Shown here one piece after another: positions 11,894-22,398 of a DNA stretch of 64,000 nucleotides. Position numbers and translations under genes: made by a program. Positions within the stretch are counted from its first letter, which is position 1; each line of letters begins with the position of its first letter. The notes below the pieces were generated by a model, which was not told where the DNA came from, searched no databases, and saw nothing but the letters and a program-made list of their open reading frames with translations. This DNA comes from Diaminobutyricimonas sp. LJ205 (lineage in GTDB: Bacteria; Actinomycetota; Actinomycetes; Actinomycetales; Microbacteriaceae), in assembly GCF_009755725.1 (NCBI RefSeq), contig NZ_CP046619.1:1116001-1180000 (forward strand), read 5' to 3'.

Positions 11894-12934
11894 GTGCCAG
11901 AACCGACTCCAATCTCTGACCAGGCCGTCTCAGCGGCCGTCGAGTCCGCCTTAGCCGCGATCGCCGCAGCAACGGACTCTGCCGCCCTCAAGGACGTGCG
12001 TTCAGCGCACCTCGGTGACTCGTCGCCGCTGGTGCGCTTCAACGCCCAGCTCCGCGACGTGCCGAACGACCAGAAGGCCGCACTCGGCAAGCTGGTCGGG
12101 CAGGCACGCGGTCGGGTGAACCAGGCCTTCGCCACCCGCGAGGCCGAGATCACTGCCCAGGAGGAGACCGCCAGGCTGGCCGCCGAAGCGGTGGATGTCA
12201 CGGCTCTCGCCTCCCGCTGGACGCCAGGCGCGCGGCATCCGCTCACCCTGCTCATGGAAGAGATGGCGGACGTCTTCGTCGGCATGGGCTGGGAGGTCGC
12301 CGAGGGCCCCGAGCTTGAGAACGAGTGGTTCAACTTCGACGCGCTGAACTTCGACGAGGATCACCCGGCGCGCGCCACCCAGGACACCTTCTTCGTCGAC
12401 CCGGTCGAGAAGCACCTGCTGATGCGCACGCACACCTCGCCCGTGCAGGTTCGCTCGCTGCTCGGCCGCGAGCTGCCGGTTTACATCGTTGCGCCGGGCC
12501 GCGTGTACCGCAGCGACGAGCTGGATGCCACGCACACCCCGGTGTTCAACCAGATCGAGGGCATCGCCATCGACAAGGGCCTCACCATGGCGCACCTGCG
12601 CGGCACGCTCGAGCACCTCGCCCGGTCGATGTTCGGCGAGGACGCCAAGATCCGCCTGCGCCCGAACTACTTCCCGTTCACCGAGCCGAGCGCCGAGATG
12701 GATGTCTGGCAGCCGAACGCCAAGGGTGGCGCCCGGTGGGTCGAGTGGGGCGGCTGCGGCATGGTCAACCGGAACGTGCTGCGCGCGGCCGGCATCGACC
12801 CGGACGAATACCAGGGCTTCGCCTTCGGAATGGGCATCGAGCGCACGCTGCAGTTCCGCAACGACATGAACGATATGCGCGACATGGTCGAGGGCGACAT
12901 CCGCTTCTCGCAGCAGTTCGGAATGGTGGTCTGA
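11894..12934 (+). CDS. pheS: Phenylalanine-tRNA ligase alpha subunit
   Basis: 346 residues from GTG 11894; the open frame reaches further upstream but overlaps gluD. The N-terminal coiled coil (KDVRSAHLGDSSPLVRF) is followed by the class II catalytic core. Motif 1 lies near RHPLTLLMEEMADVFVGMGW, motif 2 around LRPNYFPFTEPSAEMDV, and motif 3 in FAFGMGIERTLQFRNDMNDMRD. It forms the alpha2-beta2 PheRS with PheT. The stop overlaps the pheT ATG by one base. Confidence 0.96.
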   Translation: MPEPTPISDQAVSAAVESALAAIAAATDSAALKDVRSAHLGDSSPLVRFNAQLRDVPNDQKAALGKLVGQARGRVNQAFATREAEITAQEETARLAAEAVDVTALASRWTPGARHPLTLLMEEMADVFVGMGWEVAEGPELENEWFNFDALNFDEDHPARATQDTFFVDPVEKHLLMRTHTSPVQVRSLLGRELPVYIVAPGRVYRSDELDATHTPVFNQIEGIAIDKGLTMAHLRGTLEHLARSMFGEDAKIRLRPNYFPFTEPSAEMDVWQPNAKGGARWVEWGGCGMVNRNVLRAAGIDPDEYQGFAFGMGIERTLQFRNDMNDMRDMVEGDIRFSQQFGMVV

Positions 12935-15438
12935 TGCGCGTCCCAGTCTCGTGGCTTCGTGAGGTTGTCGACATCCCCGCGGACGCGACCGCCGAGGACA
13001 TCCAGGCCGCGCTCGTGCGCGTCGGCCTCGAAGAGGAAGCGGTGCATCGCAGCGAACTGAGCGGCCCGATCGTGGTCGGCGAGGTTCTCGAGTTCGTCGA
13101 CGAACCGCAGTCGAACGGCAAGACCATCCGCTGGGTCCAGTTGAACGTCGGCGAAGCGAACGGTGGTGTCCGCAGCGTCGTCTGCGGCGCGCACAACTTC
13201 CTCGTCGGCGACAAGGTCGTGGTCACCCTGCCCGGCGCAGTGCTGCCGGGGCCCTTCCCGATCGCCGCCCGCAAGACCTACGGCCACGTGAGCGACGGCA
13301 TGATCGCATCGGCCCGTGAGCTCGGCCTCGGCGAGGAACACACCGGCATCCTGCGCCTGACCGAACTCGGCCTCGACCCTGAGCCCGGCACCGACGCGCT
13401 GCCGTTGCTCGGCCTCGACGACTACGCGTTCGAGGTGAACGTCACCCCCGACCGCGGCTACGCGCTGTCGATCCGCGGCATCGGCCGCGAGTACGCGAAC
13501 TCCACAGGCGCGGCCTTCCGCGACCCGGCGGCCACCCCGGCGATCCGCGAACTCTGCGAGGCGCCGATGACCCGGTCCTTCCCGGTCACGGTCGCCGACC
13601 AGGCGCCGATCCGCGACCGGATCGGCTGCCAGGTGTTCGTCACCCGTGTCGTGACCGGCATCGACGCCACCCGCCGCACCCCGGCGTGGATGGTGTCACG
13701 GCTGAAGCTGGCCGGCATCCGGTCCCTGTCGCTGCCGATCGACGTGACCAACTACGTGATGCTCGAACTCGGCCAGCCGATCCACGGCTACGACCTCGAC
13801 AAGCTCACCGGCGGCATCACCGTGCGGCGGGCGAACCCGGGGGAGAAGCTCACCACGCTGGATGCTCAGACCCGCACGCTGAGCACCGAGGACCTGCTGA
13901 TCACCGACGACTCCGGCCCGATCGGACTGGCCGGGGTCATGGGCGGGGCGACCACAGAGATGTCGGATGCCACCACCAACGTGCTGATTGAGGCGGCCAA
14001 CTTCGACCCGGTGTCGATCGCCCGCACCGCCCGCAGGCACAAGCTGCCGAGCGAGGCCTCCAAGCGCTTCGAGCGTGGCGCCGACCCACTGGTCGCCGAG
14101 GCCGCCGCCGCCCGCGTGGTCGAACTGCTGGTCGAGCTGGCCGGTGGCACGGCCGAGCCGACCGGCTCGGTGCTGCACACCGCCGCGAAGCCGCAGCCGA
14201 TCCTGCTGCGTGACGGCTTCGTCGACCGCATCATGGGTGCTTCCTACACCGACGATGAGATCAAGAGCTCGCTCGAGGCGATCGGCACCACCGTCGTGCC
14301 CGTCGACGGCGGACTGTCAGTCACACCGCCGAGCTGGCGGCCCGACCTCTCCGACGAGCCCACCCTCGCCGAGGAAGTCGCCCGCATCGTCGGGTACGAC
14401 CGGGTGCCGTCGGTGCTGCCGGTCGCACCTCCCGGGCGTGGGCACACCCGCGCCCAGAAGCTGCGCCGGGCTGCGGCGCAGATGCTCGCCGCCAACGGTC
14501 TCACCGAGGTACAGGTGTACCCGTTCCTGTCCGAGACCGCGCACCGCCGGTTCTCGGGGGATGCCCCCGCAGTGAAGCTCGCCAACCCGCTGGACGCCGA
14601 GGTGCCGTACCTGCGTCGCACCCTCTTGCCCGGCCTGGTCGATACCGCGCGCCGAAATCTGTCCCGCGGCCTCACCGACCTGGCGCTGTTCGAGATCGGC
14701 ACCGTGTTCCTGCCCGAGGCCGGCCGTGAGTACGGCAGCGGGCCCCTGCCGGTCGGCAACGCGCACCCGGGGGAAGCCCGGCTCGCCGAGCTGAACGACA
14801 GTATCCCGCCGCAGCGTTGGAGCGTCGGCGCATTGCTGCTCGGCGACCAGATCGTCAAGCAGCCCGGCATCCGTCCGGTCGGCACCGGCATCGCCGACGC
14901 CGTCACGGTCGCCCAGCAGCTCGCGGCCGCCCTCGGCGTGACGATCCGGATCGAGCAGGGCAACCACCCGGCGATGCACCCGGGTCGCACCGCAGAGATC
15001 TTCGCGGGCGACACCGTCGTGGGCGTGGCGGGAGAGCTGTTGCCGGCGCTGGCCGAGGAACTCGACCTGCCGCGCGTGGTCGCCGTGCTCGAACTCAACC
15101 TCGATGCGCTGATCGAGGCCGGGGCGACCGAGGTGCAGACCTCCGTGATCTCCGGCTTCCCGGCAGCGACCCAAGACCTCTCGTTGGTCGTCTCGCGTTC
15201 GGTTCCCGCCGGTGAGGTGCTCGACGCGGTCGCCGAGGGAGCCGGCGGGCTGCTCGAGGACATCCGGCTGGTGGACGACTACCGCGGCACCGGGGTCACC
15301 GATGACAGCAAGTCGTTGACGTTCGCGCTGCGGTTCCGGGCATCCGATCGCACCCTGACGGCGGCCGAGGCCAGCGAGGCGAAGCTCGCGGGCGCGGCTC
15401 TGGCGGGGGAGCGGTTCGGCGCCACCATTCGCGAGTGA
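12934..15438 (+). CDS. pheT: Phenylalanine-tRNA ligase beta subunit
   Basis: 834 residues from ATG 12934. Domains in order: B1, an OB-fold tRNA-binding (EMAP/B2) domain around IVVGEVLEFVDEPQSNGKTI, the B3/B4 editing region with EVNVTPDRGYALSIRGIGRE, the B5 domain, a catalytically inactive class II-like core, and a C-terminal ferredoxin-like anticodon-binding domain (FPAATQDLSLVV ... DDYRGTGV ... SLTFALRFRASDRTLT). The B3/B4 site would hydrolyse Tyr-tRNA(Phe). Length is typical. Confidence 0.96.
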   Translation: MRVPVSWLREVVDIPADATAEDIQAALVRVGLEEEAVHRSELSGPIVVGEVLEFVDEPQSNGKTIRWVQLNVGEANGGVRSVVCGAHNFLVGDKVVVTLPGAVLPGPFPIAARKTYGHVSDGMIASARELGLGEEHTGILRLTELGLDPEPGTDALPLLGLDDYAFEVNVTPDRGYALSIRGIGREYANSTGAAFRDPAATPAIRELCEAPMTRSFPVTVADQAPIRDRIGCQVFVTRVVTGIDATRRTPAWMVSRLKLAGIRSLSLPIDVTNYVMLELGQPIHGYDLDKLTGGITVRRANPGEKLTTLDAQTRTLSTEDLLITDDSGPIGLAGVMGGATTEMSDATTNVLIEAANFDPVSIARTARRHKLPSEASKRFERGADPLVAEAAAARVVELLVELAGGTAEPTGSVLHTAAKPQPILLRDGFVDRIMGASYTDDEIKSSLEAIGTTVVPVDGGLSVTPPSWRPDLSDEPTLAEEVARIVGYDRVPSVLPVAPPGRGHTRAQKLRRAAAQMLAANGLTEVQVYPFLSETAHRRFSGDAPAVKLANPLDAEVPYLRRTLLPGLVDTARRNLSRGLTDLALFEIGTVFLPEAGREYGSGPLPVGNAHPGEARLAELNDSIPPQRWSVGALLLGDQIVKQPGIRPVGTGIADAVTVAQQLAAALGVTIRIEQGNHPAMHPGRTAEIFAGDTVVGVAGELLPALAEELDLPRVVAVLELNLDALIEAGATEVQTSVISGFPAATQDLSLVVSRSVPAGEVLDAVAEGAGGLLEDIRLVDDYRGTGVTDDSKSLTFALRFRASDRTLTAAEASEAKLAGAALAGERFGATIRE

Positions 15439-15476
15439 GCCGAGGCATGAATTTTTCCGGAGCGGATGTCGGGCGA

Positions 15477-15482
15477 TAGTGT
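15477..15482 (+). promoter_or_regulatory. -10 box TAGTGT upstream of the arg leader ORF
   Basis: TAGTGT lies 6 nt before a GTG at 15489, with a possible weak -35 (TTCCGG at 15455-15460). The AT-rich TGAATTTTT at 15448-15456 is exceptional in this GC-rich gap and could be half of an arginine-repressor box. Both are inferences from position. Confidence 0.4.
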
Positions 15483-15488
15483 TTCCGG

Positions 15489-15575
15489 GTGGACAACTCC
15501 CGCGAAGCCGAACTCCGACGCCTCCGCCGTCGTGTTCTTCGCGTACGCCGACTCTCGGCGACGTCGCACCGCTGA
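15489..15575 (+). CDS. Putative arginine-rich leader peptide of the arg operon
   Basis: A 28-codon frame starting at GTG 15489 and ending with TGA 15573-15575, in the 205-nt gap before argC. Ten of 28 residues are Arg (residues 5, 10, 11, 13-15, 18, 20, 21, 28), including RRLRRR and RVRR clusters. A -10 box 6 nt upstream makes it a plausible leaderless translation unit. Its Arg codons overlap two alternative hairpins: CGACG/CGTCG (15516-15532) and CGCCGA/TCGGCG (15546-15560). Ribosome stalling at low Arg-tRNA could affect argC expression. No T-tract terminator follows, so a translational or Rho-dependent mechanism would be needed. Arg codons are common by chance in GC-rich DNA, so this remains a hypothesis. 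Confidence 0.4.
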   Translation: MDNSREAELRRLRRRVLRVRRLSATSHR

Positions 15576-15643
15576 TTCGTCAGCCGGATTGCCGCGTCGC
15601 CGCCTCCGGTCGACCGTCCGCTTGTGATCCTTAAGGTTGAGAC

Positions 15644-16690
15644 ATGCCTCTTTCCGTTGCCGTTGCCGGTGCCAGCGGCTATGCGGGGGGCGAGCTGCTG
15701 CGGCTGCTCGCCGACCACCCCGATGTGACCGTCACCACTGTCACCGCACACTCCAACGCCGGCCAGCCGCTGATTCAGGTGCAACCGCACCTGCGTTCGC
15801 TGGCCCATCTCACGCTCGTCGAGACCACCCCCGAGAACCTGTCCGGGCATGATGTCGTCTTCGTCGCCCTGCCGCACGGCATGTCGGGGGAACTCACCGA
15901 GCACCTCGGCGACGACAGTCTCGTCATCGACTGCGGCGCCGACCACCGGCTGACGAACGAAGCCGACTGGGCGAAGTTCTACGGTGGCGAGTTCTACGGC
16001 GCCTGGACTTACGGGCTGCCCGAACTGCTGCTTCAGAATGGTGGTCAGCAGCGTGAGCGGCTCGCCGGTGCGAAGCGCATCGCCGTGCCCGGCTGCAACG
16101 TCACCGCGATCACCCTGGGGCTTGCCCCCGGGATCGCCGCCGGCGTGATCGAGCCCGACGACCTCGTCGCGGTACTCGCGGTCGGCACCTCCGGCGCCGG
16201 CAAGAGCCTGAAGACGCACCTGCTGGCCAGCGAGATCCACGGATCGGCGTCCCCGTACGCGGTCGGTGGCACCCACCGGCACAACCCCGAGATCCGGCAG
16301 AACCTCACCGCAGCCGGGGGAGCGGACGTGAGCATCTCGTTCACTCCGGTGCTCGTGCCGATGAGTCGCGGCATCCTTGCCACCTCGACGGCGAAGCTGC
16401 GCGACGGCGTCTCCGCCTCCGACGTGCGGGCCGCATGGGAGAGCGCCTACGCGAACGAGGCGTTCGTGCATGTGCTGCCCGAGGGCCAGTTCCCGAAGAC
16501 CGCCGATGTGCTCGGCGCCAACACCGTGCTGGTCGGCATCGCCGTCGATGAGGCGGCAGGGCGAGTCGTCGTGGTCAGCGCGATCGACAATCTGGTCAAG
16601 GGCACAGCGGGCGCCGCCATCCAGTCCATGAATCTCGCCCTCGGCCTGCCCGAGGCGACCGGCCTGCCTCTGAATGGAGTCGCCCCGTGA
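15644..16690 (+). CDS. argC: N-acetyl-gamma-glutamyl-phosphate reductase
   Basis: 348 residues. The N-terminal Rossmann motif is [17 protein letters not shown], and the catalytic Cys is in [29 protein letters not shown] and the C-terminal VDNLVKG-like [17 protein letters not shown] are family hallmarks. It reduces N-acetylglutamyl phosphate to the semialdehyde with NADPH, the third step of arginine synthesis. First structural gene of the arg operon; its stop overlaps the argJ GTG by 4 nt. Confidence 0.97.
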
Positions 16691-17838
16691 CCATCACAAC
16701 CCCGAAGGGGTTCCGTGCCGCGGGCGTCACCGCCGGCCTCAAGTTGAGCGGCGGACGCGACCTCGCGCTCATCGTCAATGACGGGCCGAGCAAGGCCGCG
16801 GCGGCGGTGTTCACGAGCAACCGTGCCCAGGCGAACCCGATCCTGTGGTCCAAGCAGGCGATCAGCGACGGTGTGGTCGAAGCGATCGTGCTGAACTCCG
16901 GCGGCGCGAACTGCTTCACCGGGGCGCAGGGTTTCCAGACCACGCACGCCACCGCCGAGGGCGTCGCCGAGCGGCTCGGCGTCTCCGCTGGCGACGTGCT
17001 GGTCTGCTCCACCGGTTTGATCGGCGAGCAGCTCGACCTCGACAAAATCCTCGGAGGGGTGCGCTTCGCGGTTGCCAGCCTGTCGCCCAAGGGCGGCGAG
17101 GACGCCGCGAAAGCCATCATGACCACCGACACCGTGCCGAAGACCGCTGTCGTCGAACGCGAGGGCTGGTCGATCGGCGGGATCGCCAAGGGCGCCGGGA
17201 TGCTCGCGCCCGCGCTGGCCACGATGCTGGTCGTGATCACGACCGACGCCGACCTCGACTCGGTGGCCCTCGACACCGCTCTGCGGCAGGCGACCCGGAT
17301 GAGCTTCGACCGTCTCGACTCCGACGGCTGCACCTCGACCAACGACCAGGTGACGCTGCTTGCGTCCGGGGCATCCGGAATCGCGCCAGACGCCGCCGCC
17401 TTCCAGGCTGCGCTCACCGAACTCTGCCTTGACCTCGCGACGCAGCTGATGGCCGACGCCGAAGGGGCGAGTCACGACATCCTGATCGAGGTTGTGAACG
17501 CCGCCAGCGAAGACGACGCCGTTGAGGTGGGCCGCTCGGTCGCCCGGAACAACCTGTTCAAGACCGCGGTCTTCGGCAACGATCCGAACTGGGGCCGGGT
17601 GCTCGCCGCGATCGGCACCACCCAGGCGGAGTTCGATCCGTATCAGGTGGATGTCTCGATGAACGGCGTGCGAGTCTGCCACGCGGGCGCGCCCGACCAG
17701 CCTCGCGACCAGGTCGACCTGAGTGGTCGCACCGTGCACGTGCACATCGACCTCAAGGCGGGCACCGAGACCGCGACGATTCTCACCAACGATCTCACTC
17801 ACGAGTACGTGCACGAGAACAGCGCGTACAGCTCATGA
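16687..17838 (+). CDS. argJ: Bifunctional ornithine acetyltransferase / N-acetylglutamate synthase
   Basis: 383 residues from GTG 16687. The protein self-cleaves before the nucleophilic Thr in the conserved [13 protein letters not shown] segment, giving alpha and beta chains. It recycles the acetyl group from acetylornithine to glutamate, so the pathway is cyclic. Other hallmarks are [19 protein letters not shown], and the C-terminal [16 protein letters not shown]. It overlaps argB by 4 nt. Confidence 0.97.
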
Positions 17839-18716
17839 CCGAGTCGGATGCCGCGGCCAAAGCCGCAACCCTGATCGAGAGCCTGCCGTGGCTGAAACGC
17901 TTCCACGGCGAGACCATCGTGGTGAAGTTCGGCGGCAACGCCATGGTCGACGAAGATCTCAAGCGCGCGTTTGCCGAAGACATGGTCTACCTGCGCTACG
18001 CCGGCATCAAGCCGGTCGTCGTGCACGGCGGCGGCCCGCAGATCTCGTCGATGCTTGACCGTCTCGGCATCCCGAGCGAGTTCAAGGGCGGCTACCGGGT
18101 GACCTCGCCTGAGGCGATGGATGTGGTGCGGATGGTGCTCACCGGCCAGGTCAGCCGCGAGATCGTCGGCCTGATCAACGAGCACGGCCCGCTCGCCTCC
18201 GGCATCGCCGGAGAAGACGCCGGACTGTTCCAGGGCCGCAAGCGCGGTGCGCTCATTGACGGCGAACTCGTTGACATCGGCCAGGTCGGCGACGTCGTCG
18301 AGGTGAATCCCGAGGGCGTGCTGGCGGAACTGGACGCTGGCCGGATCCCGGTCGTCTCGACGATCGCTCCCGACATCGACCAACCCGGAAGCTCGCTCAA
18401 CGTCAACGCCGACGCGGCCGCTGCGGCCCTGGCGGCCGCGATCGGTGCAGCCAAACTCGTGATCCTGACGGATGTCGCCGGGCTCTACCGCGACTGGCCG
18501 AACCGCGACTCGCTGATCTCGGTGATCGACACCGACGAATTGCGTGAGCTGCTGCCCTCGCTTGAGTCCGGAATGATCCCCAAGATGACCGCCTGCCTGG
18601 ACGCCGTCGAGCAGGGCGTGCCCAAGGCCGCCATCATCGACGGACGGCAGCCGCACTCCATCCTGCTCGAAGTGTTCACCACCAGTGGTATCGGAACCGA
18701 GGTAGTACCCGTATGA
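17835..18716 (+). CDS. argB: Acetylglutamate kinase
   Basis: 293 residues. The amino acid kinase fold is shown by [38 protein letters not shown]-like [22 protein letters not shown] and [16 protein letters not shown]. It phosphorylates N-acetylglutamate and is usually the arginine feedback-inhibited step in organisms with ArgJ. The start and stop overlap argJ and argD by 4 nt each. Confidence 0.97.
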
Positions 18717-19891
18717 CCCAGTACCAGGATCGGTTCGCCGACGTCATGATGAAGTCGGCACCGCGGCCGCTCCGTCAACTCGTGCGCGGCCAGGGCTGCT
18801 ACGTGTGGGACACCGACCACATGATGTACCTCGACTTCCTCGCCGGGATCGCGGTCAACTCGCTCGGTCACAGCCATCCGGTGCTGGTGGACACCATCAC
18901 GGCTCAGGCTTCGAACCTCATCCACGTCTCCAACTATTTCGCCACCGAGCCGCAGATCGCGCTTGCCGAGCGGCTGCGGCGGATCACCGGCGCGGGCGAG
19001 AGGGGCCGGGTGTACTTCGGCAACTCTGGAGCAGAAGCGAACGAGGCGGCGATCAAGCTGGCCCGCCGGAAGAACCAGAGCGGTCGCATCCTGGCACTTC
19101 ACAACGGGTTCCACGGACGCACCATGGGATCCCTCGCGCTGACCGCGAAGCCGCAGCTTCGGGAACCGTTCGAACCGATGCTGCCCGGCGTCGAGCACAT
19201 CGAGGCGACCGTGCAGGCGCTTGAGACCGCGTTCGCTGACACGCGCCCGATCGCCGCGCTGGTGGTCGAACTGATCCAGGGTGAGGCAGGCGTCGTAGAA
19301 CTGCCCGCCGACTTCATCCGCCGTGCCCGGGAGATCACCCACGAACACGACGCCCTGCTGATCGTCGACGAAATTCAAACCGGAGCCGGCCGCACCGGCA
19401 CCTGGTTCGCCTACCAGGCGCATGACATCGTGCCCGACGCGATCACCGTCGCGAAAGGGATCGGCGGCGGCGTCCCGATCGGCGCGCTGGTCACCTTCGG
19501 TGCCGCGTCCGACCTGTTCAGCCTGGGCCAGCACGGCAGCACCTTCGGCGGCAACCCGCTGGCGACCGCCGCCGCGAACGCGGTGCTCGGCGAGATCGAG
19601 GACGCCGGACTGGTTGAGAACGCCGCGCGCCGAGGGCAGCAGTTGCGCGAAGCGATCCTCGGCATCGGCCACCCGCTGATCCATGAGGTTCGCGGCCGAG
19701 GTTTGCTGCTTGGGGTCGGGCTTACCCGCCCCGTCGCCCACGCCACCGTGGACAAGGCGCTGGAGCTCGGACTGATCGTGAACGCTGCCAACGAGTCCAG
19801 CGTGCGCATCGCGCCGCCCCTGATCATCGGCGACGCCGAGATCGAAATCTTCACCGACATCTTCACCCGAGCCCTGGAGGCAGCCGAATGA
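18713..19891 (+). CDS. argD: Acetylornithine aminotransferase
   Basis: 392 residues. A class III PLP aminotransferase: the PLP contact loop [18 protein letters not shown], the cofactor Asp in [19 protein letters not shown], the aldimine Lys in [17 protein letters not shown], and [15 protein letters not shown]. It converts N-acetylglutamate semialdehyde to N-acetylornithine and may also act on succinyl-diaminopimelate intermediates. Overlaps argB and argF by 4 nt each. Confidence 0.96.
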
Positions 19892-20821
19892 CCCGTCACC
19901 TATTGCGCGACGACGACCTGACCCCAGCCGAGCAGACCGCGATCCTTGATCTGGCGCTCGAACTGAAGGCCGATCGATACTCCCGCAAGCCGCTCGACGG
20001 CCCGCAGACGGTGGCGGTGATCTTCGACAAGTCGTCGACGCGTACACGGGTGAGCTTCGCCGTCGGCATCGCCGACCTCGGCGGCAGCCCGCTGATCATC
20101 AGCACCGAGTCCAGCCAGTTGGGCGGGAAAGAGACCCCGTCCGACACCGCGCGGGTGCTCGAGCGGATGGTGTCTGCCATTGTCTGGCGAACCTACGGCC
20201 AGGCCGGCCTCGAGGAGATGGCCGCGAACACCACGGTGCCGGTGATCAACGCGCTGAGCGATGACTTCCACCCCTGCCAGTTGCTCTCCGACCTGCTCAC
20301 CATCCGGGAGCACAAGGGCACGCTGCAGGGGCTGACCGTCGCGTTCCTCGGCGACGGCGCCTCCAACATGGCGCAGTCCTACCTGCTCGCGGGCGCCACC
20401 GCGGGCATGCACGTGCGCGTCGCAGCTCCCACGGAATACGCTCCGGCGGCCACGGTGGTGGCTGACGCGACGGCGATCGCGGCGTCGACCGGTGGCTCGG
20501 TGAGCGTCCTCACCGACCCGCAGCAGGCCGCGGCCGGCGCGGATGTGATTGTCACCGACACCTGGGTGTCGATGGGCAAGGAAAGCGAGAAGGCCGAGCG
20601 ACTCGAGACCTTCGGCGGCTACCGTGTCGACGCCGACCTGATGGCCCTCGCCACGACCGACGCACTGTTCATGCACTGCCTGCCCGCCGACCGCGGCTTC
20701 GAAGTCACCGCCGACGTGATCGACGGCGAGCAGAGCGTCATCTGGGACGAGGCCGAGAACCGGTTGCATGCCCAGAAGGCGCTGATGGTCTGGCTGCTCG
20801 AGCAGAACGGCGCGAAGACCA

Positions 20822-20829
<8 letters not shown>
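19888..20829 (+). CDS. argF: Ornithine carbamoyltransferase
   Basis: 313 residues. The carbamoyl phosphate-binding motif is SSTRTRVSF, the ornithine-side motif is [20 protein letters not shown], and [15 protein letters not shown] is conserved. It makes citrulline from ornithine and carbamoyl phosphate. In many actinobacteria argR and argG follow argF; here argH follows directly with an 8-nt overlap, and neither argR nor argG is present in the cluster. Confidence 0.97.
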
Positions 20830-22223
<1,394 letters not shown>

Positions 22224-22276: not shown

Positions 22277-22343
22277 ATCCAGTGCACAGGGTTTGATCGA
22301 GTAGGCGGATTACCCTCGTGGGTGGAACCTCGAGGGAAGGTTC

Positions 22344-22385
22344 GCGGACGAGGGAGCAGTACCCGCAGCACGACAAGACTGACTC
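22344..22385 (+). promoter_or_regulatory. Guanidine-III (ykkC-III) riboswitch
   Basis: The 42-nt segment matches the ykkC-III consensus: ACGAGG (22348-22353), GTACC (22359-22363) and GACAAGAC (22372-22379). P1 is GCGG/CCGC (22344-22347 with 22363-22366), where the Thermobifida fusca example as I recall it has CCGG/CCGG, a compensatory change. The pseudoknot pairs GAGCAGT (22354-22360) with ACTG-A-CTC (22378-22385), seven pairs with one bulged A, again different bases from the recalled example but same pairing. The SMR gene's ribosome site (GAAGG, 22388-22392) follows immediately, suggesting control of translation by guanidinium. Confidence 0.9.
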
Positions 22386-22398
22386 AGAAGGGTTTGTC

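Follow-up and report, generated by a model that had tools for sequence, protein, structure and literature searches.

We propose that the arginine biosynthesis operon of Diaminobutyricimonas sp. LJ205 (Microbacteriaceae) is controlled by a leaderless leader peptide that senses charged tRNA-Arg and acts in place of the repressor ArgR, a reading of the sequence that we consider likely. The peptide would be encoded by a short, arginine-rich upstream open reading frame (uORF) in front of argC. We lean, with less assurance, toward the wider proposition that the family lost ArgR and that its arg operon came under such a leaderless, arginine-sensing peptide, whose stop codon usually falls within one arm of the switch hairpin and which would operate without an intrinsic terminator. 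The original prediction had interpreted the frame as a putative leader peptide, and this interpretation is supported by the analysis reported here.

Organization of the arg Operon and Its Leader

In the window (the whole stretch of 64,000 nucleotides that was analysed; the leader elements and argC described here lie on its forward strand), the pheT stop codon at 15438 and the argC ATG at 15644 are separated by a gap of 205 nt. The argC gene (15644–16690), with Pfam semialdehyde dehydrogenase domains, heads an argC-J-B-D-F-H operon (15644–22223) in which argC is followed, in order, by the Pfam domains ArgJ, AA_kinase, Aminotran_3, OTCace, and Lyase_1/ASL_C2; the gene names were assigned because of these domains and the gene order. 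Because adjacent frames overlap by 4 nt at argC/J, J/B, B/D, and D/F and by 8 nt between argF and the next frame, the pheT-argC gap is the sole gap for argC-argH, as had been stated in the original prediction.

The argH domains (Lyase_1/ASL_C2) are spread over two overlapping frames (20822–21463 and 21249–22223), an arrangement that fits a frameshift within a C run and would reflect either a sequencing error or a genuine disruption. Immediately 3′ of argH is a Guanidine-III riboswitch (RF01763, 41 bits; 22322–22388). This riboswitch was the sole match to Rfam at gathering threshold between positions 12300 and 23500, and the leader upstream of argC matched no Rfam model.

The uORF (15489–15575), delineated by sequence, a list of open reading frames, and conservation, is putatively leaderless and comprises 28 codons from a GTG start to a TGA stop (15573–15575). 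The predicted peptide, VDNSREAELRRLRRRVLRVRRLSATSHR, contains ten Arg residues. A -10 box, TAGTGT (15477–15482), which matches the TANNNT pattern of relatives, is separated from the GTG at 15489 by a 6-nt spacer; both the frame and its -10 box are thus present as first described. Among 112 uORF loci identified in the family, this spacer is 6 nt in 94 and 7 nt in 18. Promoter geometry leads us to infer that the transcript starts at or beside the GTG.

Position counts from the 112 promoters, aligned on the -10 box, reveal a -35-like region with the consensus ATTTGC at positions -26 to -21 relative to the start of the -10 (frequencies of 70, 69, 84, 60, 80, and 58%, respectively). This element, which includes a TTG, sits 18 nt upstream of the -10. 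At least four matches to TTGACA with spacers of 16–19 nt were identified in 30% of these promoters compared to 2–20% in seven control windows. The corresponding region of the window is ATTTTT (15451–15456), a weak match in which T replaces the conserved G.

Conservation of the uORF among Microbacteriaceae

The original prediction proposed aligning the pheT-argC gap across the family and looking for a conserved short frame, and such a frame was found. We compiled loci from 90 of the 189 genomes of the family in which ArgC was matched (30 loci and 60 regions), chiefly from the upper end of the match list, where similarity is higher, and from the best 80 of 278 relatives with named contigs. Removal of 13 loci that were identical over 120 nt around the argC start reduced the dataset from 171 to 158 loci. 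A fixed search was then applied that specified TANNNT, a spacer of 6–7 nt, an ATG or GTG start, 15–45 codons, at least five Arg, and at least four Arg in the last 16 codons.

A uORF was identified in 112 of the 158 distinct loci and in 112 of the 128 with an upstream region of at least 180 nt. By comparison, dinucleotide shuffles of these 128 regions yielded 0.65 uORFs on average and three at most over 20 rounds, and the reverse strand yielded one. Since TANNNT at 6–7 nt before the start was a search criterion, it is present in all 112 uORF loci by definition, and the test lies in the peak of the spacer distribution: when spacers of 0–20 nt were scanned, only those of 6 nt (94) and 7 nt (18) rose above three. 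The length of the predicted peptides ranges from 18 to 39 aa and their start regions vary.

No uORF was detected in the 30 loci with short upstream regions, partly by construction, as these regions end at the pheT stop; rescanning of up to 330 nt upstream of argC recovered nothing but pieces of pheT. Seven near-miss loci, deviating in spacer, Arg count, or distance (L012, L024, L130, L134, L135, L151, and L158), were counted neither as uORF-bearing nor as uORF-less. Among all regions collected, two (L204 and L238) are placeholders of 10–11 bases. Four loci with 0–119 nt of upstream sequence (L013, L051, L068, and L113, the last from G197) were unjudgeable. This leaves 35 of 154 judgeable loci without a uORF. 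Because ArgR was likewise not found in the 199 Microbacteriaceae genomes searched, some members of the family appear to live with neither the uORF nor ArgR, which counts against the proposed replacement.

At the level of genera (87 genomes sampled), 26 of 46 harbored the uORF, 16 lacked it, three were represented by near-misses only, and one included both states. In a quick ArgC tree, uORF-bearing loci fell on either side of the family's first split, and a group of 14 rows resembling Rathayibacter and Subtercola was devoid of uORFs. At least eight changes of uORF label were required on this tree as drawn, partly since truncated loci, including the unjudgeable L013, L051, and L068, were scored as ‘none.’ This distribution fits an old gain followed by later losses.

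Conservation of the Arginine Codons

The Arg run of the uORF spans codons 10–21 (15516–15551), includes eight Arg, and is the presumed stalling region. Its last codon, CGA (15549–15551), served as the anchor for comparison among relatives; L120, L125, and L128, in which the anchor failed or was out of frame, were left out of the codon columns. Arg was present at columns -7, -6, and -5 in 80, 87, and 83 of 108 uORFs, respectively, and relatives share a C-terminal Arg run (e.g., RRRRGGRRL, RARRS, and RVRRLSATSHR).

In these three columns, entropy at the third codon position (1.57–1.73) exceeded that at the first and second positions (0.76–1.12). Arg is therefore kept in these columns while third bases vary, which is the pattern of Arg enrichment and synonymous change that the original prediction had put forward as a check. 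The protein-level signal is confined to the Arg run, because the three codon positions are alike when averaged over all 12 columns (1.19, 1.42, and 1.40). Nearer the stop codon, third positions are constrained too, as RNA structure would predict.

CGA, a rare and presumably slowly decoded codon, accounted for 15.9% of the Arg codons in uORFs compared to 3.3% in argC from 79 of these loci; the anchor codon, which by design was chosen as CGA in preference to other CGN codons, was excluded from this count.

Distribution of ArgR and ARG Boxes

Neither ArgR domain (PF01316 or PF02863) was detected in any of the 199 Microbacteriaceae genomes searched, including that of strain LJ205, and the two domains were identified in 9 and 8 of 14 control genomes, respectively. 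PF01316 was present in 268 of 297 genomes from the order; among the names listed, from which nine are missing, the 29 genomes without it comprised 23 Microbacteriaceae and six others. Likewise, it was present in 133 of 148 genomes from the class, and of the 15 without it, five were Microbacteriaceae; the other ten include several incomplete genomes.

We used 66 of 248 ArgC matches from other families of the order (58 regions and eight loci), 65 of which were from genomes that encode ArgR. ARG-box-like hexamers, scored with a motif that we take to represent the ARG box, were identified in the 60 nt before argC in 64 of these 66 loci, in one of the 112 uORF loci, and in none of 36 uORF-less Microbacteriaceae loci, a group that includes the unjudgeable L051. 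Conversely, no leaderless-type ORF of 8–60 codons was identified upstream of argC in any of the 66 loci from other families. Collectively, the failure to detect either ArgR or ARG-box-like sites provides an independent reason to expect another sensor of Arg in Microbacteriaceae.

ArgR-less genomes outside of the family were considered as independent cases and rejected: of six that were queried, four (G419, G565, G595, and G547) had argC, and none of these had an Arg uORF. An ARG-box-like sequence was recognized by eye in G419 and G565.

A single TGAAT half-site (15448–15452) was observed in the window within GCATGAATTT (15445–15454), 5′ of the uORF promoter and beyond the 60 nt covered by the ARG-box test. 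It presumably resembles half of an ARG box and could be a relic or a chance occurrence.

Pairing in the Leader RNA

Two competing hairpins had been described within the Arg codons, and both exist in the window: one formed by CGACG and CGTCG (15516–15532) and one with the sequence CGCCGA-CTC-TCGGCG (15546–15560), the 4-bp core of which (CGCC/GGCG) could form in about 85 of 108 relatives, where codon -1 is CGC. However, the best-conserved pairing, as indicated by comparison of arms among relatives, instead joins GGCGACG (arm A; 15557–15563), which lies within the uORF and is shared with the second of these hairpins, to CGTCGCC (arm B; 15595–15601). In relatives, a GGCGAC-like arm A follows the CGA codon, and its first G is the final base of a TAG stop codon in 80 of 111 loci. 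In 17 of the 111, including this genome, the position of the stop reads as sense and the frame extends by 18 nt. Arm B is most often GTCGCC and is located 39–77 nt upstream of the argC ATG.

Positions 1–4 of the arms were fixed by the search pattern, and L157 was excluded from the arm counts, the anchor having failed or being out of frame. At positions 5–10, A:B pairs were observed in 301 of 438 cells from 73 unique arm pairs compared to 269.1 ± 6.5 when arms were shuffled among genomes, with none of 5,000 shuffles as high; these shuffles ignore kinship. The true register yielded 593 of 730 pairs compared to 467 at most when the arms were slid by 1–3 positions. A weaker excess was observed at positions 5–9 across all 111 loci (402 vs. 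384.7 ± 5.2 in shuffles that likewise ignore kinship; 4 of 2,000 as high). The arms lack a standard pair at position 5 in 33 and at position 7 in 51 of the 111 loci.

In the window, the minimum-energy fold of the leader contains the A:B helix. The stability of this leader is not unusual (z = -1.55; 19 of 200 shuffles were equally stable). In a folding model, the mean probability of A:B was 0.53 with a stalled ribosome, 0.55 without a ribosome, and 0 with a ribosome at the stop codon, the last by construction, and the helix was absent from the model in some relatives (e.g., L005). A scan of the window from 15300 to 15800 for intrinsic terminators identified none 3′ of arm B; the sole site, where 0.4 were expected, was the hairpin at 15516–15532 inside the uORF. 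The sequence between arm B and the Shine-Dalgarno (SD) core of argC is rich in C across the family (48% C and 19% G), and the corresponding stretch of the window (15602–15631) is a candidate Rho loading site on the basis of this composition.

Two further candidates were rejected. The first, an off-structure between arm B and the start of the argC coding sequence, including its Gly-Gly-Glu codons, showed no excess of pairing over synonymous controls. The arm-A motif CGCCGANNNTNGGCGAC was uninformative as a marker of further copies of the element, as it matched 58 of 100 genomes; the genome of strain LJ205 had one match besides the uORF.

Seven uORF-less loci (L026, L114, L115, L124, L133, L148, and L160) carry an arm-B-like GTCGCCGCC (four of seven) or GCGCCGCC/GCCGCCGCC (three of seven) before argC, and in these loci the elements sit just 55–75 nt after pheT. 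The end of pheT carries GGGGCGAC in six of the seven. The pheT end may stand in for the uORF in these loci, or the resemblance may be due to chance.

Proposed Mechanism and Alternatives

Under the proposed mechanism, transcription would begin at the GTG at 15489 or beside it, and translation of the Arg-rich peptide would follow immediately. With charged tRNA-Arg plentiful, the ribosome would clear the Arg run, cover arm A (15557–15563), and stop, such that the A:B hairpin would not form. This would leave both arm B and the C-rich stretch open, and most transcripts would end before argC, most likely via Rho. With Arg in short supply, the ribosome would stall about 25–30 nt upstream of arm A, arm A would pair with arm B, and transcription would continue through argCJBDFH; translation of argC would use the AAGG site of this gene. 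A ribosome stalled at codons 13–15 is predicted to leave arm A free and one positioned at the stop to cover it. The direction of the switch, with the operon on when Arg is short, is suggested by pathway logic.

Rho is a first guess for the switch step because of the base composition from arm B to the SD core and because this genome encodes the Rho RNA-binding domain. We infer Rho-dependent attenuation tentatively, as a step that has at best an even chance of being correct.

The same leader peptide could instead act through translational attenuation, in which stalling would alter access to the argC SD rather than transcription. Leaderless polycysteine ORFs in mycobacteria, which Canestrari et al. 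(2020) describe as cysteine-responsive attenuators, offer a precedent, and the start region of argC is suggestive: the SD core AAGG, located in the window within TAAGGT (15632–15637), accompanies the uORF in 112 of 112 loci but was detected in only one of 66 loci from other families and 7 of 36 uORF-less loci of the family. However, modeled folding with a ribosome footprint revealed no consistent difference in masking of the SD between states, and this candidate was rejected. The modeled energy required to open the SD and start was 8.24 kcal/mol in the stalled state and 7.93 kcal/mol with the ribosome at the stop, about the same, and stalling made this region more open in 29% of the 111 loci and less so in 47%. 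Moreover, arm B did not pair with argC codons 9–25 beyond the level of synonymous controls (0.526 vs. 0.496; higher in 44 of 79 loci). We therefore consider a translational switch possible but doubtful.

TAAGGT is also a possible -10 box positioned 6 nt from the argC ATG, which raises the alternative that argC is transcribed from its own leaderless promoter and that the uORF is unrelated to the arg operon. A -10 box at 6–7 nt before the argC ATG is indeed common, having been identified in 101 of 112 uORF loci, 31 of 36 uORF-less loci, and 42 of 66 loci from other families, such that argC looks leaderless in most loci of the latter two groups. In the 101 uORF loci the box is always TAAGGT; because this hexamer includes the SD core, the two signals are separable in just 11 loci. 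In all 11 it is the -10 box that is gone and the SD core that is kept; uORF-less loci use different hexamers (e.g., TAGATT and TAGGCT), mostly without an SD core. An independent argC promoter would also fail to account for the Arg run or for the arm of the A:B pairing before argC, and we regard this alternative as improbable. Judged from these sequences, argC looks mostly leaderless and ARG-boxed outside of the family and mostly leaderless without a box in uORF-less members, whereas every uORF is accompanied by an SD core. TAAGGT could nonetheless function as a second, unattenuated argC promoter beside the leader, which counts against attenuation. Two uORF-less loci (L162 and L171) have an ordinary SD core before argC without a -10 box at 6–7 nt from the ATG; neither has pheT within the fetched stretch, and argC has perhaps been relocated.

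Conservation of the uORF in place might also be expected of a trans-acting small protein or of an ORF that feeds re-initiation at argC, in both cases without sensing of Arg. Leader peptides acting in trans (PMC7298713) and the idea of re-initiation (PMC4833913) have both been reported. Yet the variable start regions and lengths of the predicted peptides (18–39 aa), in which conservation is largely limited to the C-terminal Arg run, argue against a trans-acting protein, and the uORF stop, at about 60–130 nt from argC, is far for re-initiation; we consider these possibilities very improbable. Finally, the caution in the original prediction that GC-rich frames are Arg-rich by chance has some basis in the Arg content of the other two frames (15.5 and 19.5%), but the uORF frame reaches 26.9%, and the recovery of uORFs in 112 of 128 regions compared to 0.65 in shuffled sequence, together with the spacer peak at 6–7 nt, already contradicts chance as an explanation and renders it practically untenable.

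Comparison with Known Systems

By its anatomy, the arg element described here resembles a leader-peptide attenuator, and it is likely a replacement for ArgR. Searches of open-licence literature turned up no earlier description of an arginine leader peptide from Microbacteriaceae. In their survey of regions upstream of actinobacterial operons, Seliverstov et al. (2005; PMC1262725) place arginine among the amino acids without a conserved RNA regulatory structure.

The same survey predicted polycysteine leader ORFs before mycobacterial cys operons, and the leaderless polycysteine attenuators reported by Canestrari et al. (2020) are the closest relative in kind of the arg uORF, as far as these accounts describe them. 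Both comprise a run of codons for the product amino acid near the stop codon of an ORF that precedes a biosynthetic operon, both are leaderless (putatively so for the arg uORF; Canestrari et al., 2020), and no conserved terminator hairpin is described for the polycysteine ORFs in the treatment of PMC1262725. Switching by the cysteine ORFs was weakly suspected to involve Rho (PMC1262725) and is described as translational in PMC13236596, which also describes translation attenuation in general. The arg uORF differs from the polycysteine ORFs in the amino acid that it would sense, in a conserved A:B hairpin that usually overlaps the stop codon, and in its occurrence, as sampled, in Microbacteriaceae only, where it stands in the position from which ArgR is missing.

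Classical attenuators with an intrinsic terminator are known in Actinobacteria for trp and ilvB (PMC1262725) and for ilvB1 of M. tuberculosis (PMC13236596). In such attenuators a leader ORF carries sensing codons, and a ribosome at the stop codon blocks a hairpin that a stalled ribosome allows, features that the arg leader is predicted to share. Unlike them, the arg leader lacks a GC-rich hairpin with a U-tract before argC in the scan of the window. The fungal arginine attenuator peptide is likewise encoded by an upstream ORF and responds to arginine. However, it is eukaryotic, it acts by arginine-induced arrest by the nascent peptide, and it is not known to rely on a run of Arg codons that senses tRNA charging.

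The system that the leader would replace, ArgR with its ARG box, acts at the head of the same operon in other families of the order and presumably on the same signal. It differs in that both the protein repressor and its operator are undetected in uORF-bearing Microbacteriaceae, with the exception of an ARG-box-like hexamer in one of 112 loci. To our knowledge, no bacterial arginine leader-peptide attenuator was known before, and this one, if true, would be the first. It would also clearly exemplify the replacement of a repressor by an RNA- and ribosome-based switch at one operon. This replacement is testable, in that a repressor and operator are gone and a leader ORF and ribosome-binding site are gained at the same operon, and more than a hundred natural variants are at hand for dissecting how a leaderless, terminator-free attenuator might switch. 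Most of the members sampled from this large family carry the element, which stands where the ArgR/ARG-box pair of the sister families is missing.
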